64,000 bases of DNA from Lampropedia puyangensis (GTDB lineage Bacteria > Pseudomonadota > Gammaproteobacteria > Burkholderiales > Burkholderiaceae_C), in NCBI RefSeq assembly GCF_004833285.1, contig NZ_STFG01000001.1, forward strand, positions 62,001 through 126,000. The letters are read 5' to 3'. The position numbers were made by a program, and so were the translations under genes. Shown in pieces: positions 36,673 through 45,586 of the stretch (its first letter is position 1; the number at the start of each line of letters is the position of its first letter). Under the pieces are notes generated by a model. It worked only from the letters and a program-made list of their open reading frames with translations. It ran no database searches and had not been told where the DNA came from.

Positions 36673-37560
36673 TCATCGATTAGGCATTGCACCAAGGCGG
36701 CTACTTTCTCTTTCTAATAGGTAGTCAGCCAAGCGGTGACCGCCTGCATAGCCCTGTCGGAACTGCAACCCGACAGGGCGCTCAAATCCATGGCAGGCAA
36801 TGGGCAGCACTTCTACCCCTTGGGGCATACCGCCGACTCGCGCCCAGTTGGGTACTAATGAGACACCCAGCCCTTCGCTGACCAGCAAGGCAATGCCTTC
36901 GAGCGAGTCGAGCTCATAGCGCGCATCGGGCTCAATCCCTTCACTTTGCAAGAATGCGTTGGCGTACGCGCCGCCCCAATTTTGTCGCTCGTAGCGCACC
37001 AAGGGTTTCGTGCGCAGCAAATGCATGGGAGATTCATGGGCCCATGGCGTGGGGGCCAAAACAACCAACGGCTCCAGTCGCAGTTGCCGCCACTCCACCG
37101 ATTTCGGCAACGCAAAAGGGGGTTTGACGATGAGGGCCACATCCAGCTCGTCGCGTAGAACTTGGTGGTAGAGGTTTTGCGAGATACCCAGCACCACATT
37201 GGTTTCCAGCTCAGGATGGCGTGCGCGCAGCTCGGTCAGCATACGAGGAACCAAGCCACTCAAACCGGTGAAGATGGTGCCTAGGCGCAAGGTTTTTCCA
37301 ATGCCATCTGCGGCGGTGGCGGCATACAGATCACGCACCGCACCTTGAAATCGGTACGCTTGTTCAAGCAAACGACGCCCCGATTCAGTCAGGGCGACTG
37401 TGCGGCCTGAGCGGACAAACAGCGTCACACCAAACTCCAACTCCAGCGCACGGATGCGCTGGGCTAGCGCAGGGGCGGTCAGGCCGCTGCGCCGGGATGC
37501 CTCGGCCAACGAACCGCACTCGGCAATCATGACAAAACTATTGATAAAACTGGTGTCCAT
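36673..37560 (-). CDS. LysR family transcriptional regulator (IKPPF subgroup)
   Basis: A 295-residue protein starting at ATG 37558-37560 (MDTSFINSFVMIAECGSLAE); the open frame runs on upstream into sequence with no LysR similarity. The recognition helix is SGLTAPALAQRIRALELEFG. The effector-domain segment ELDVALIVKPPFALPKSVEW and PLVRYERQNWGGAYANAFL parallel the LysR at 34894. It is divergent from a Bug/oxidase/aldolase operon with an inverted repeat at 37627-37640 between them. Confidence 0.9.
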   Translation of the reverse strand: MDTSFINSFVMIAECGSLAEASRRSGLTAPALAQRIRALELEFGVTLFVRSGRTVALTESGRRLLEQAYRFQGAVRDLYAATAADGIGKTLRLGTIFTGLSGLVPRMLTELRARHPELETNVVLGISQNLYHQVLRDELDVALIVKPPFALPKSVEWRQLRLEPLVVLAPTPWAHESPMHLLRTKPLVRYERQNWGGAYANAFLQSEGIEPDARYELDSLEGIALLVSEGLGVSLVPNWARVGGMPQGVEVLPIACHGFERPVGLQFRQGYAGGHRLADYLLERESSRLGAMPNR

Positions 37561-37626
37561 AGGTGTTTTGGCATTTTTATCAACGCATGCGGGTGCAAAT
37601 GAGGCGCTATTTTGAAGACACCAGCA

Positions 37627-37640
37627 TGCATTGCAATGCA
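37627..37640. promoter_or_regulatory. Palindrome TGCATTGCAATGCA upstream of the Bug/oxidase operon
   Basis: A perfect 14-bp palindrome in the 266-base divergent spacer, 67 bases from the LysR start and about 190 from the Bug start. It is a candidate LysR site. The remainder of the spacer shows no other clear signal. Confidence 0.5.
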
Positions 37641-37826
37641 AACAAAAACTTTGCTTCAAAGAAAGAATTGCACCATTGTAGATATTTGTTGACGCAGACA
37701 GAATCGCCCTGTCCTGTGCAAGAAAAGAACCGACCAAGACACCGCGGCGGGGCAGACAAACTGGCTTTGAGTGGTGTGGCAGAGCGCAGTGGCAATCCAT
37801 TATTTGAATGAAGAGGAAGACAAACC

Positions 37827-38825
37827 ATGGCATCACCAATGCATTTCCGTTTCTTGCGCACGGTATTGTGCAGCGCTTTGGCAGGCGCCTGCGTAGCGCT
37901 GGCCGCTCCTGTGCATGCCGCCGCCGATTACCCCAAACAGGCCGTCCGTGTGATGGTGGGTTTTTCTGCTGGTGGAGCCGTCGACAATGTGGCGCGCCAA
38001 ATTGGAGAGGCACTATCCAAGCGTTTGGGGCAAGCATTTGTGATTGAGAACCAAGCGGGCGCAACGGGGACCATCGCAGCGGAAACCGCCGCGCGTGCGC
38101 GCCCTGATGGTTATACCTTGCTGGTGGCAACGCAGTCCACGATGGTGGTCGCACCACGGATGTACCCCAACCTCAAATTGAAGCCCATGCAAGACCTCAA
38201 GCCTATTGCCTTGATCGGTTCTGTGCCTTTGGCTTTGGTGGCGCATCCGTCGCTGCCGGTCAAAACGGTGGGCGATGTGATTGAACTGGCCAAAAAAGAA
38301 AACGGCGAGCTGATCTACGCTTCTTCAGGTGCAGGTGGCCCTCAGCATCTGGCTGCGGAACTGTTTGCCTCCATGGCTGGCGTGAAGATGGTGCATGTGC
38401 CCTACAAAGGGGAGGCCAATGCCATTGCCGACTTGATTGGCAACCATGTTCCGTTGATGTTCAGCAATCTGCCAACGTTGCTGCCCTATATCCAAAGCGG
38501 CCAGTTGCGTGGTATTGCCGTAAGCGGGCACAGCCGTGCGGCCTCTGCGCCTGAGCTGCCAACTGTTGCTGAGGCAGGGCTGCCTGGCTTTGATGCACAG
38601 ACTTGGTTTGCTTTGTTTGCACCAGCCCAAACCCCTGACGACGTGATCGAGAAACTCGGCGCGGCTGTGGACGATGCTTTGCAAGACCGCATTTTGCAAG
38701 GCACTCTTGCCTCACAAGGTTTGACCATCAATGCGCTGCGCGGCCCTGCATTGGTGACTTATATGAAAGACCAGGAAACCCAGTTGGGCAAGGTTGTTGA
38801 GGCGGCCGGCATCAAGGCGGATTAA
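37827..38825 (+). CDS. Bug family periplasmic binding protein
   Basis: A 332-residue protein with a signal peptide (hydrophobic ~8-30, cleavage near VHAAA). The family motif is VRVMVGFSAGGAVDNVARQI, where the usual PxxPGG is replaced by GFSAGG; FVIENQAGATGTIAAETAAR and GYTLLVATQSTMVV follow. It leads an operon with an alpha-hydroxyacid oxidase and a DapA-family enzyme, opposite a LysR gene. The likely ligand is a hydroxy- or keto-acid used by those enzymes (inference). No TctAB permease is adjacent. Confidence 0.9.
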   Translation: MASPMHFRFLRTVLCSALAGACVALAAPVHAAADYPKQAVRVMVGFSAGGAVDNVARQIGEALSKRLGQAFVIENQAGATGTIAAETAARARPDGYTLLVATQSTMVVAPRMYPNLKLKPMQDLKPIALIGSVPLALVAHPSLPVKTVGDVIELAKKENGELIYASSGAGGPQHLAAELFASMAGVKMVHVPYKGEANAIADLIGNHVPLMFSNLPTLLPYIQSGQLRGIAVSGHSRAASAPELPTVAEAGLPGFDAQTWFALFAPAQTPDDVIEKLGAAVDDALQDRILQGTLASQGLTINALRGPALVTYMKDQETQLGKVVEAAGIKAD

Positions 38826-41462: not shown

Positions 41463-44400
41463 ATGCACGTGCATGCACTGCCCTATTTCTTTGTTTTGAT
41501 TCATCGGTTTGGTTTGCGCGCAGTAGGCGTTTTTTGCGTGTGCCTTGGTTTTTTGGGAGTGACCAACATCCAGGCTCAAGGATTGTCAGCGGGCATTAGT
41601 TCTCAGAGTGGTGTTTCTCTTTCGACTTCGGATGATGGCGATGTTCTGACCATCACCGTGGATCCTGTTGCGCAGGCTCTGATTCGCTGGGACACATTTG
41701 ATATTGGCAACAGCAGCGAGGTTCATGTCGTTTTTTCTCAGGCCGATACCGTACTGAGAAATGAGGTCACGGGCACTACTGGCGGTTTGATTGCAGGGAC
41801 GCTGACCTCTGTTGGCGGTGGCACCGTGCACATTGAACATGCGGCAGGGGTGCAGTTTGGTTCAAGCGCACGGCTGACGCTGACGGGGGGCGATTTCTCG
41901 GTCAGTAGCCAGGGCGACATCGTGCTTGGTGGGAACTGGGATGGCCGCAACTTGACTGTGCAGGCCGGTGGCTCCTTGACTCAGAGCGGTGCGATCTCCG
42001 TCAACGGTACCAGCAGCTTCACCGCCACCAGCGACATCGCCCTCGACCAGTCCGGCAACGTGTTCGAGGATGTCGTCTCGCTCAACGGTAACGCGTCCCA
42101 GGTCACGGCCAGCGGCGGCCTGCGCTTTGGCATCCTCAACGTGATTTCGCTGATGGCCAGCGCCGATACGCTCTATCTGCCCCGGTCCCTGACCACGCTG
42201 GGGGGGCAGTCCTACCGCGGCAGGCTGGTGCTGGAAGGCGACACCTCGCTCACCAGCACCCTGGGAGCACTCGCCTTCACCAGTACGCTGGAAGGCCCGC
42301 ACGCACTGTCGCTGCATGCCAGCGGCACGGTCTACCTGGATGCCATGGCGAACATCGCCTCGCTGGACGCCACGGCCACCGAAACCCAGCTTGTCTCGGA
42401 CATCACCACCCTGGGCGACATCGCGCTGACCAACACCCGCGTGATCGGCGACGTAGCACTGACCAGCACGGGCGGCTCGGTGCAGATCAACGGCTCGCTC
42501 AACGGGCTGCAGGATGATACGGATGTGCTGTCCATCACCGCCGATGGACAGATCGCTCTGCAGAACGCGGTCGGCAATGACGTGCGGCTGCACGATCTTT
42601 CACTGTCCGCCGGCACGGTGTCGACCTTCGTGGTGGACGTAGGCAACCGCCTTGCCATCGACAGCATCGCCAGCATCACCCAGAACGGCGCCTACAACGT
42701 CGGCGGCACGTCACGGTTCGCATCGGACGGAAGCATCACGCTGCTCAATATCGGCAATATCTTCGGTGGCGATGTCGAGCTCAACGGCAGCAATGTACAG
42801 ATCGCAGCGCAGGGGCCGCTGACGCTGTCGGGTGTCGATGCGAACCTGCTGCACGCCACGGCCACCGACCTGCTGACCGTACGCAATGCCGACGTCGCCA
42901 CGTCGAGCACGTTGACCGGCGATGCGGTGGCACTGGACGGCGTTGCACTGGGCCAGACGGCCGAGGTCACTGCGCTGGACGGGAACATCACCCAGCAGGG
43001 CAGCGTCCGCGTGGATGGGCCGAGCCGCTGGACGGCTGCAGGCGATGTGCTGCTGGACAACGACAGCAACCAGCTTAATGGGCCCGTCACCGCCGTCGGC
43101 GGGGCGATCACACTGGCCACCGCTGGCGCACTGGACGTCGCCAATGTACAGGCGTCGGGACAGGCCACGCTGCGCGGCAATGGCGTGTACCTGGGCTCCG
43201 CGCAGGCCACGGGCCTGCAGGTGGACAGCAGCGCCGGCATCACCCAGGGCAGCGCATTGAACCTGGCCTCCGGATCGCGGTTCACTGCCGTCGACGACGT
43301 GCTGCTGGACAACGCCGGCAATACGTTCGGCGGCGGCATACAGGTGATGGGCCGCAACATCGACATCCACAGTGCCGGTGGGCTGCTGCTGAACGGCGTG
43401 GAGGCCACCGGCAACCTGCGCGCCGCTGCAGCAGGCGGCAGCCTGCTGCAGAGCGGCGATGTACGCGTGCAGGGCCGCAGCGATCTGCTGGCCGGCGGCA
43501 GCGTGCAGCTCGACCGTGCGGGCAACCAGTTCGGCGGGCCCGTGGTTGTGGAAGGCCGGTCCATCCTGCTGCGGGCAGGCAGTGGTCTGGATATGGAGAG
43601 CGTCCGCAACGGCAGCAACAGCGCCGTGCAGCTGCTGGCGACGGGCGACATTGATGTGGCTGGCGATGCCATCGATACCGGCAACAGCCTGCTGAGCCTG
43701 TTGTCCTCCGCCGGTCAGGTCCGCACCGCCACCACCCTGCGCGGCAGTCAGGTCAGCATCGGCGGCGTGGAAGGCATCCGCATCGGTGGAGAAATCACGG
43801 CTTCCAGGCTGTCCCTGACCGCGACCCGCGGCGATGTGCTGCAGCAGTCGGGTCGCATCCAGTCCGGCGATGCCTTGCTGAGCGCGGGGCAGGGCGATCT
43901 GCGGCTGACCAGTGCCGACAACCGCTTCAACGGCGTGACCACCCTCTACGGCCGCGACGTAGACATGGCCGCGGGTGGACTTCTGCTGGGCGACGTCGCC
44001 GTCAGCCGCAACCTGAAGCTGGACAGCAGCGGCAGCATCACCCAGCAGGCGCAGATGCGTGTCACGGGGGACGCCGAGCTGCGGGCCGCCGGGGACATCA
44101 CCCTGCTGCATGCCGGTAACCGCTTCGGCTCATCGCTCAGCCTTAGCGGTGTGAATATGCAATTGCATAGTGACGAAAACGTCACTCTCTTGAGGGCAGA
44201 TGGGCAACATCTGAGCTTGAATGGGGATGGGGTGTTTCTGATCCCCGATGGAACAACGATCAGCACCGGGTCTGTTGATTTGAGAGGCGGCAACTTGCAG
44301 GTGCGTGGTGCGCTTACAAATGCGTTGACGGTGGAGTCCGGGGCCACGATCAGTGGCGATGGGACGGTGGGGACGTTGGTGGTTAAGCCGCAGGCGCAAG

Positions 44401-45473
44401 TGCAACCTGGTGTCGACGCAAGCAGCGCTGCGGTGTTGACGGTTCGGTCGTTCCAAGCGGAGCCGGGTGCGATGCTGCGCATTCATGTGCAAGACGCAGG
44501 AGTGGCGAGCAGACTGCAAGTCAATGGCCTTGCGCAGTTGAATGGGCATGTGCAGTTGGTATCGCTAGGTACTATGCCTAGCGGGCGCTTTCATATTCTT
44601 GATAGTACGCAACCCATTCAAGGGGCATTTGCAGACATGGTTTTTGTGCCCGCACTGGCTGCAGAGACCATTTCGCAGTTCAGCCATGAAGAGCAAGCCG
44701 TTGTAGCTTGGGTAGTTGCAACGCCTGCTTTGGAAACTGAAGGCACAGATCAAACGGCGGTTATTCATAAAGCGTTTGCTGATCCATTGCTTGTGCGGTT
44801 GCTCGATGACGATGGTGCACCGGTAGAGGGGATTTCTGTTGAGTTCTCCACTCCTGCCACGGGGGCTGGCGCTGTGTTGAGTCAGACATTGGTGCTCACC
44901 AATGCAAATGGAGAGGCCAGCGTGACGGCAACAGCTAATGCTGAAGCGGGACAGTACTTAGTGACCGCTCGTGTTCAGGGGCTGGCTGAGAGTGTTAATT
45001 TCGCGCTGGAAAATACCTTGCACGAAGTGGCATTTACGCTGACGACCACACCCGCACAGCCGCTGGAGGGGGAGGAATTCACCATTGAGGTGCAAATGCA
45101 GTCCGATGCAGATACAGCGCCAACGGGAACATTGAATGTGCTGGTTGCAGGGCAAGTTGTCTGCCCTGACGTTGCGTTGGCGCAGTCCACTGCGCAGTGT
45201 GTGTTGCCCAAGGGCGTGTCTTTGGCGAAATCAACGCACGCCCAAGATGGAGCAAAGGCTGCGACGGTGGTGGTTGCAGGGCAGACATTGGATATTGAGG
45301 TGCAGTATTCAGGCGATGCCTTGCACCAGTCTGCCACGTGGACAACGCAATTGGCGCTGATGCGCCAGATTGTTTCCACGCCGGTGCCATGGAATGCCCC
45401 TTGGGCTTTGTTGTGCATGGGTCTGATGCTGGCCTTGAGCGCACGCCTGGTGTGGCGCCGTCGAGCAGGCTAA
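41463..45473 (+). CDS. Large mosaic surface protein: haemagglutinin-like N-terminus, Ig-like domains, C-terminal sorting-like tail
   Basis: A 1336-residue protein from ATG 41463; a TTG at 41397 would bury the signal peptide behind 22 residues. Residues 1-40 are a signal peptide (cleavage near IQAQG). Residues ~45-150 resemble the two-partner-secretion haemagglutination domain (ALIRWDTFDIGNSSEVHVVF, HIEHAAGVQFGSSARL). Residues ~170-900 hold GN-x-F-G-G-like repeats. Residues ~945-1060 look like an autotransporter-type beta-helix end, ~1085-1180 a Big_1-like Ig domain and ~1183-1300 a second Ig-like domain. The end TPVPWNAPWALL, hydrophobic helix and WRRRAG resemble IPTL/PEP-CTERM signals. Bases ~41985-44140 are much richer in G+C than both flanks. 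It is probably an adhesin or matrix protein; no TpsB partner is nearby. Confidence 0.8.
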   Translation: MHVHALPYFFVLIHRFGLRAVGVFCVCLGFLGVTNIQAQGLSAGISSQSGVSLSTSDDGDVLTITVDPVAQALIRWDTFDIGNSSEVHVVFSQADTVLRNEVTGTTGGLIAGTLTSVGGGTVHIEHAAGVQFGSSARLTLTGGDFSVSSQGDIVLGGNWDGRNLTVQAGGSLTQSGAISVNGTSSFTATSDIALDQSGNVFEDVVSLNGNASQVTASGGLRFGILNVISLMASADTLYLPRSLTTLGGQSYRGRLVLEGDTSLTSTLGALAFTSTLEGPHALSLHASGTVYLDAMANIASLDATATETQLVSDITTLGDIALTNTRVIGDVALTSTGGSVQINGSLNGLQDDTDVLSITADGQIALQNAVGNDVRLHDLSLSAGTVSTFVVDVGNRLAIDSIASITQNGAYNVGGTSRFASDGSITLLNIGNIFGGDVELNGSNVQIAAQGPLTLSGVDANLLHATATDLLTVRNADVATSSTLTGDAVALDGVALGQTAEVTALDGNITQQGSVRVDGPSRWTAAGDVLLDNDSNQLNGPVTAVGGAITLATAGALDVANVQASGQATLRGNGVYLGSAQATGLQVDSSAGITQGSALNLASGSRFTAVDDVLLDNAGNTFGGGIQVMGRNIDIHSAGGLLLNGVEATGNLRAAAAGGSLLQSGDVRVQGRSDLLAGGSVQLDRAGNQFGGPVVVEGRSILLRAGSGLDMESVRNGSNSAVQLLATGDIDVAGDAIDTGNSLLSLLSSAGQVRTATTLRGSQVSIGGVEGIRIGGEITASRLSLTATRGDVLQQSGRIQSGDALLSAGQGDLRLTSADNRFNGVTTLYGRDVDMAAGGLLLGDVAVSRNLKLDSSGSITQQAQMRVTGDAELRAAGDITLLHAGNRFGSSLSLSGVNMQLHSDENVTLLRADGQHLSLNGDGVFLIPDGTTISTGSVDLRGGNLQVRGALTNALTVESGATISGDGTVGTLVVKPQAQVQPGVDASSAAVLTVRSFQAEPGAMLRIHVQDAGVASRLQVNGLAQLNGHVQLVSLGTMPSGRFHILDSTQPIQGAFADMVFVPALAAETISQFSHEEQAVVAWVVATPALETEGTDQTAVIHKAFADPLLVRLLDDDGAPVEGISVEFSTPATGAGAVLSQTLVLTNANGEASVTATANAEAGQYLVTARVQGLAESVNFALENTLHEVAFTLTTTPAQPLEGEEFTIEVQMQSDADTAPTGTLNVLVAGQVVCPDVALAQSTAQCVLPKGVSLAKSTHAQDGAKAATVVVAGQTLDIEVQYSGDALHQSATWTTQLALMRQIVSTPVPWNAPWALLCMGLMLALSARLVWRRRAG

Positions 45474-45484
45474 CTGCCTACAAC

Positions 45485-45522
45485 AAAAACAAAAAGGCCG
45501 TGACAGCGGTCTTTTTGTTTTT
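45485..45522 (+). terminator. Rho-independent terminator after the surface protein gene
   Basis: AAAAACAAAAAGGCCG (45485-45500) pairs with CGGTCTTTTTGTTTTT (45507-45522) with one wobble. The T-rich arm supplies the terminator tail. It lies 12 bases after the stop. Confidence 0.85.
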
Positions 45523-45586
45523 CTGCTCCAATCAAGCGCATCGCCAGAGGGCTTTCCCACCAGATGTTCAGGAGCTTTGACGCCGT

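Follow-up and report, generated by a model that had tools for sequence, protein, structure and literature searches.

The window analysed here, a 64,000-nucleotide stretch of the Lampropedia puyangensis genome, contains a giant surface-protein gene whose interior differs from both of its ends in G+C content, and the question raised by this locus is whether all parts of the gene share one origin. The gene is likely a composite, in which a repeat array of high-G+C origin has been joined in frame to host-style ends. The step in codon usage is abrupt, homology edges coincide with it on both sides, the ends are host-like, and no such step was present in the comparable genes examined. The parts of the gene are as follows, with G+C content at third codon positions given as GC3.

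41463–45473, + strand: putative composite surface-protein gene; 1,336 amino acids in a single uninterrupted reading frame.
41463–41870, + strand: 5' host-style part, with a signal peptide and the first part of a two-partner secretion (TPS) domain; GC3 0.493.
41871–44141, + strand: high-GC3 interior, residues 137–893, with the DUF5649 repeat array; GC3 0.844.
44142–45470, + strand: 3' host-style part, with a passenger-end-like stretch, a Big_1 domain, a weak Big_3_5 match and a C-terminal tail; GC3 0.563.
45366–45470, + strand: XrtH/IPTL-like C-terminal tail, TPVPWNAPWALL..., then a hydrophobic stretch and RRR.

Domains over the Pfam cut-offs are seven DUF5649 (PF18886) stretches (E 3.9e-61) and one Big_1 domain (residues 1109–1177). 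The tandem PF18886 units score 173 bits over the whole protein, against a cut-off of 25, and identify it as a DUF5649 repeat protein; the array is presumably of the beta-helix type. Residues 208–390, within the interior, match DUF5649 poorly. A signal peptide was read by eye at about residues 1–40, the passenger-end-like stretch covers about residues 917–1073, and the Big_3_5 match is below its cut-off. Tandem or recent expansion of the repeats was considered and rejected. In DNA sequence the units have diverged, with a longest repeat family of 47 nt at 68–72% identity, and values of 86–95% occur only in stretches of up to 34 nt.

GC3 in 50-codon windows is 0.46–0.56 at starts 41463–41703, climbs through 0.64–0.80 at starts 41763–41883, holds at 0.78–0.92 at every start from 41943 to 43983, and is 0.38–0.72 from 44103 on. 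The best fit with two change points places them at 41871 (41862–41880) and 44142 (44097–44154), with a gain of 71.5 log units and segment values of 0.493, 0.844 and 0.563. With a coarser grid the fit gained 70.1. Among 200 permutations in which synonymous codons were shuffled within each amino acid, leaving the protein and each amino acid's codons unchanged, the highest gain was 16.6. A codon-usage test conditioned on amino acid, contrasting host usage with a high-G+C model built from three DUF5649 genes of relatives that were picked after their codon closeness to the interior had been seen, returned 41871–44147 as the foreign-like segment. The step is carried by synonymous choice: CAG makes up 1.00 of Gln codons in the interior versus 0.52 in the C part, ATC 0.91 versus 0.25 of Ile, and CTG 0.75 versus 0.28 of Leu. 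GC3 is uniform across the interior (0.83–0.85) in repeat and non-repeat stretches alike, including residues 208–390 (0.851).

These results agree with the sequence-only reading, which had described an abrupt G+C step, an interior switch to other codons and a frame that runs through both junctions; the frame is indeed continuous, with no stop. Of the breakpoints it had placed near 41985 and 44140, the right one stands, and the left one moves about 115 bases upstream. Its estimate of about 2.15 kb of repeats from a high-G+C source holds as to non-host composition, and the fitted size is about 2.27 kb. Long antisense open reading frames (ORFs) also lie over the interior (42711–44111, 42692–43684 and 41862–42593, all on the − strand) and are probably a by-product of high GC3 on the sense strand.

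The interior lies outside the compositional range of the host. In a sample of 127 non-overlapping host ORFs from nine stretches (179 kb), GC3 is 0.583 (sd 0.067) with a maximum of 0.745, and the other ORFs of at least 120 amino acids in the window have values of 0.53–0.69. Only 2 of 3,113 overlapping host windows of 150 codons reach a GC3 of at least 0.80, and the lowest interior window is at 0.79. The codon score per codon averages −0.279 (sd 0.103) in the host, and is −0.371 for the N part, +0.213 for the interior and −0.330 for the C part. The interior scores above all 127 host ORFs; 107 of them score above the N part and 90 above the C part. Both ends thus fall within the range of host ORFs, as had been proposed when they were called native in composition. 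In codon distance the interior is 0.165 from the host bulk, 0.061–0.117 from 13 DUF5649 genes with GC3 of 0.83–0.96, and 0.106–0.202 from seven with GC3 of 0.54–0.75.

The codon step falls at the limits of the homologous domains. The TPS domain (PF05860) matches residues 71–138, corresponding to profile positions 36–104 of 252, at 22.6 bits (cut-off 33.5), and both TPS homology and codon usage break at residues 137–138. In all eight homologues scanned (a ninth, L236, was left out) the match runs to profile positions 175–250, with 98–121 bits. The TPS domain is therefore interrupted where codon usage changes. NPNG is the name of the TPS core motif, and no motif of this type is present: IEHAAGV aligns with LQNPSGI of the homologue L232. 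On the other side, residue 893 is the end of the last strong DUF5649 unit, and the break in codon usage lies at 892–895. Single-sequence structure models of both junctions had mean predicted local distance difference test scores of 40.6 and 42.5 and were set aside.

The protein lacks the complete N-terminal TPS domain that characterizes TpsA proteins. The earlier suggestion that the secretion end had been kept while the repeats were swapped, which might change surface specificity, does not hold for the N-terminus, because only part of the TPS domain remains, ending at the break. No TpsB transporter gene was found in a search confined to 13 neighbouring ORFs (32.6–54.8 kb), among them the two that directly flank the gene. 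Export by a TpsB partner is unlikely, judging from the truncated TPS domain and the lack of a TpsB-like gene among these neighbours.

Comparable genes were examined for a similar step. PF18886 was found in 24 other genomes of 299, and stretches from 21 were compared (G113, G216 and G205 were left out); the controls are DUF5649 stretches from these 21 genomes, not every PF18886 gene in them. The 25 stretches gave 23 control ORFs, with ORFs whose best unit scored below 25 bits dropped. Two, L053 and L057, were missed by the local repeat model; L057 has masked bases and was left out, and L053 is nearly flat in 200-codon blocks (GC3 0.84–0.94, last block 0.76). Among the 24 DUF5649 ORFs this gene has the highest change-point gain, 71.1, followed by 35.9 for L064_25, where the three segments (0.95/0.68/0.85) describe a drop near the C-terminus. 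Five further controls have gains between 18 and 27, including L052_22 (0.75/0.91/0.80) and L055_42 (0.63/0.90/0.80), in both of which the high-GC3 segment does not correspond to the array. The first 136 and next 757 codons differ in GC3 by 0.35 here and by at most 0.15 in the 23 other ORFs; for the last 443 against the preceding 757 codons the values are 0.28 and at most 0.08. Seven controls with overall GC3 of 0.54–0.75 had room to rise. The others are high in G+C throughout, so the control set is good but not large.

Separate homology searches of the interior and the ends, which had been proposed as a check, gave matches for both ends and, for the interior, listed matches of 32–36% identity. 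In the family, 85 other genomes matched the N part at E 1e-4 or better, and 23 others matched the C part, mostly through Big_1 and in some through the passenger-end-like stretch. The C part has matches of 28–38% to other proteins; two of three such loci scanned have PATR over its cut-off, and one of these also has an autotransporter barrel. The interior matched two other genomes among 399 of the family (E 1e-12) and three others among 369 of the class (E 1e-10), own genome included in both totals. The PF18886 model is more sensitive than such searches with a protein, having found 24 others of 299 genomes where the interior protein found 2 others of 399. No donor was found in plasmid DNA, and the whole protein reached 31.8% and 32.9% identity to plasmid proteins. 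Pattern scans of viral contigs and genome contigs for the interior gave no confirmed match. Against 60 genomes, own included, matches of the whole protein beyond the gene itself were limited to residues 1084–1193, the Big_1 part. Among the nine other genomes of the genus, two of them 77–80% complete, only the Big_1 part was matched, in two of the nine. Big_1 also occurs in an 1,834-amino-acid surface protein elsewhere in the genome (L077:3012–8513, − strand, contig C19), which has an IPTL-like tail and five Big_1 stretches, one of them 49% identical to that of the present gene, besides DUF11, SdrD_B-like and choice-of-anchor U domains.

We infer a horizontal origin of the interior, followed by recombination. 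A relative whose coding DNA is high in G+C would have supplied a segment of about 2.27 kb encoding the DUF5649 array. The segment would have been captured in frame, with a 5' piece (signal peptide, partial TPS domain) before it and a 3' piece (Ig-like domains, exosortase-H-type tail) after it, and the recombination probably used illegitimate joins or short similarities that repeat genes share. The predicted product would be Sec-exported and probably sorted or processed by XrtH, forming a beta-helix stalk or adhesin, and would not be a normal two-partner-secretion substrate.

Several findings weigh against this reading. The interior matches listed are only 32–36% identical and a donor was not found, nor was any strain or relative with the same ends and another middle; the exchange is consequently deduced from composition and domain edges. 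The whole gene seems to be accessory in the genus, its ends being host-like but not proven native, and the matches there, to Big_1 only, do not establish that repeats were swapped within a resident gene. For Big_1 itself, the identity to a protein from a different genus (52%) exceeds that to the copy elsewhere in the genome (49%). Some controls also have a mild GC3 fall in the first codons, up to 0.15, so such a fall is not unusual, though neither end of this gene was matched; in most controls, being high-GC genes, GC3 could hardly have risen further. The window has no tRNA, none of the scanned ORFs is a mobile-element gene, and no pair of repeats spans exactly the two junctions. The tail passes no curated cut-off, its match to NF033207 (midcut_by_XrtH) having E 0.002 and 18.2 bits against a cut-off of 45.

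The surroundings of the gene bear on an alternative in which the host took up the complete mosaic gene from a mid-G+C relative, with the join already made elsewhere and the ends matching the host by chance. The downstream oxidoreductase was found in six of the nine other genus genomes; its best named relative is in Comamonas sp. JUb58 (72%; closer records may be missing from the comparison), which places the host probably in the Comamonadaceae. None of the nine gave a match at E 1e-60 to the dapA-like upstream neighbour. One further feature lies between the gene and the oxidoreductase.

45475–45532, + strand: terminator-like segment, recognized by eye, directly after the stop codon; common to the genus relative G006.

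This 58-bp segment is 94.8% conserved in G006 (L097:8659–8716), where it is also next to the oxidoreductase and the ORF upstream is different, gamma-glutamyltransferase-like as named by reading the ORF and not by family search. The accessory block therefore seems to end at the stop codon, as the conserved segment with a different gene before it suggests. The terminator scan did not list 45475–45532, and the promoter scan found none. Farther upstream, ORFs predicted to encode a TctC-type receptor (37827–38825, + strand) and a LysR regulator (36673–38157, − strand) overlap head to head, which is probably a matter of start-codon choice.

Acquisition of a ready-made mosaic would agree with this boundary, with the unmatched dapA-like neighbour and with the restriction of matches in the nine genus genomes to Big_1. 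We nevertheless regard it as rather unlikely, since both ends lie within the host codon-usage distribution (a donor of similar composition could still provide this) and the tail resembles a class that recurs in the own genome. A foreign interior is common to this reading and the composite one, which therefore do not exclude each other, and confidence in them overlaps.

The coincidence of the GC3-rich part with the repeat array would also be expected if the repeats had turned GC-rich in place, by GC-biased gene conversion or recombination among units. This is improbable given that the units are diverged at the DNA level (the 47-nt family at 68–72%), that residues 208–390, without strong DUF5649 units, are equally rich (0.851), and that the seven DUF5649 genes of GC3 0.54–0.75 have no comparable rise over the array, the largest being from 0.54 to 0.60 (L066_0; C part 0.63). 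Selection of codons for translation speed or repeat-domain expression would fit a step carried by synonymous sites, but is very improbable: the host ribosomal-protein genes L2, L3, L4 and L23 (GC3 0.49–0.60) are farther from the interior (0.192) than the host bulk is (0.165), and the largest change-point gain among the own-genome surface-type ORFs listed is 13.6. An assembly chimera of two organisms, conceivable in a draft of 3.97 Mb in 76 contigs, is the least credible explanation, as it would need two joins within a single reading frame of 4 kb, each preserving the frame without a stop, at homology edges and inside a 705-kb contig.

Returning to the composite reading, the C-terminus resembles a sorting tail of the XrtH type, with scores under the curated cut-offs; TIGR04174 (IPTL-CTERM) was not reported for it. 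An XrtH exosortase is encoded in the same genome (TIGR04177, 225.4 bits, cut-off 86), and IPTL_CTERM has 14 matches over its cut-off there and none in 14 control genomes in the same search. The motif TPVP-x-NAPWA is common to the tail and to the own-genome protein L222, which is over the TIGR04174 cut-off at 21.3 bits, a shorter piece of it being just under. An ad hoc rule, which asks for hydropathy above 1.8 over the 45 C-terminal residues together with two or more R/K among the last 12, selected none of the 23 other DUF5649 proteins, 19 of which have a complete C end, and selected this protein narrowly (1.89; next highest 1.48). The genome has many IPTL-type tails to one XrtH match, and contigs C2, C25 and C30 have such tails at their starts or close to them. 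Tentatively, the gene may be a cross-pathway fusion, in which a foreign stalk of the filamentous haemagglutinin (FHA) type lost most of its TPS domain, was re-anchored through the host exosortase-H route and is displayed thereby.

Modular exchange within large surface-protein genes is documented by relatives for CdiA/TpsA and for Neisseria. The present gene is similar in being a large surface-protein gene with a probable exchange, and differs in that the exchange is deduced from composition and domain edges alone. With known XrtH substrates (TIGR04174, NF033207) it shares TPVP-x-NAPWA, the hydrophobic stretch, the basic end and an XrtH in the genome, whereas its tail is below the cut-offs and the protein bears an FHA-type array. 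If the XrtH link is true, the protein would be a substrate of a sorting route for which the literature search gave little: nothing relevant was returned for XrtH or IPTL-CTERM. The composition step, with domain edges on both sides, makes this a testable example of how bacteria might build new giant surface proteins out of parts of different secretion systems. Like FHA-like DUF5649 (PF18886) proteins, it has a TPS-type N-terminal segment followed by a DUF5649 array; unlike them, it has a TPS domain cut short, a codon step around the array, a Big_1 domain and an XrtH-like tail. One paper lists DUF5649 among stalk domains and reports that it did not occur with a known adhesive domain (PMC8286594). 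In a statistical study of 1,462 ortholog sets from 144 genomes, the laterally transferred unit may be part of a gene, and domains are not necessarily preserved (Chan et al. 2009, PMC2639706). The present case is one composite gene with no donor found, and it resembles the fragments described there in that its left join falls inside the TPS domain.

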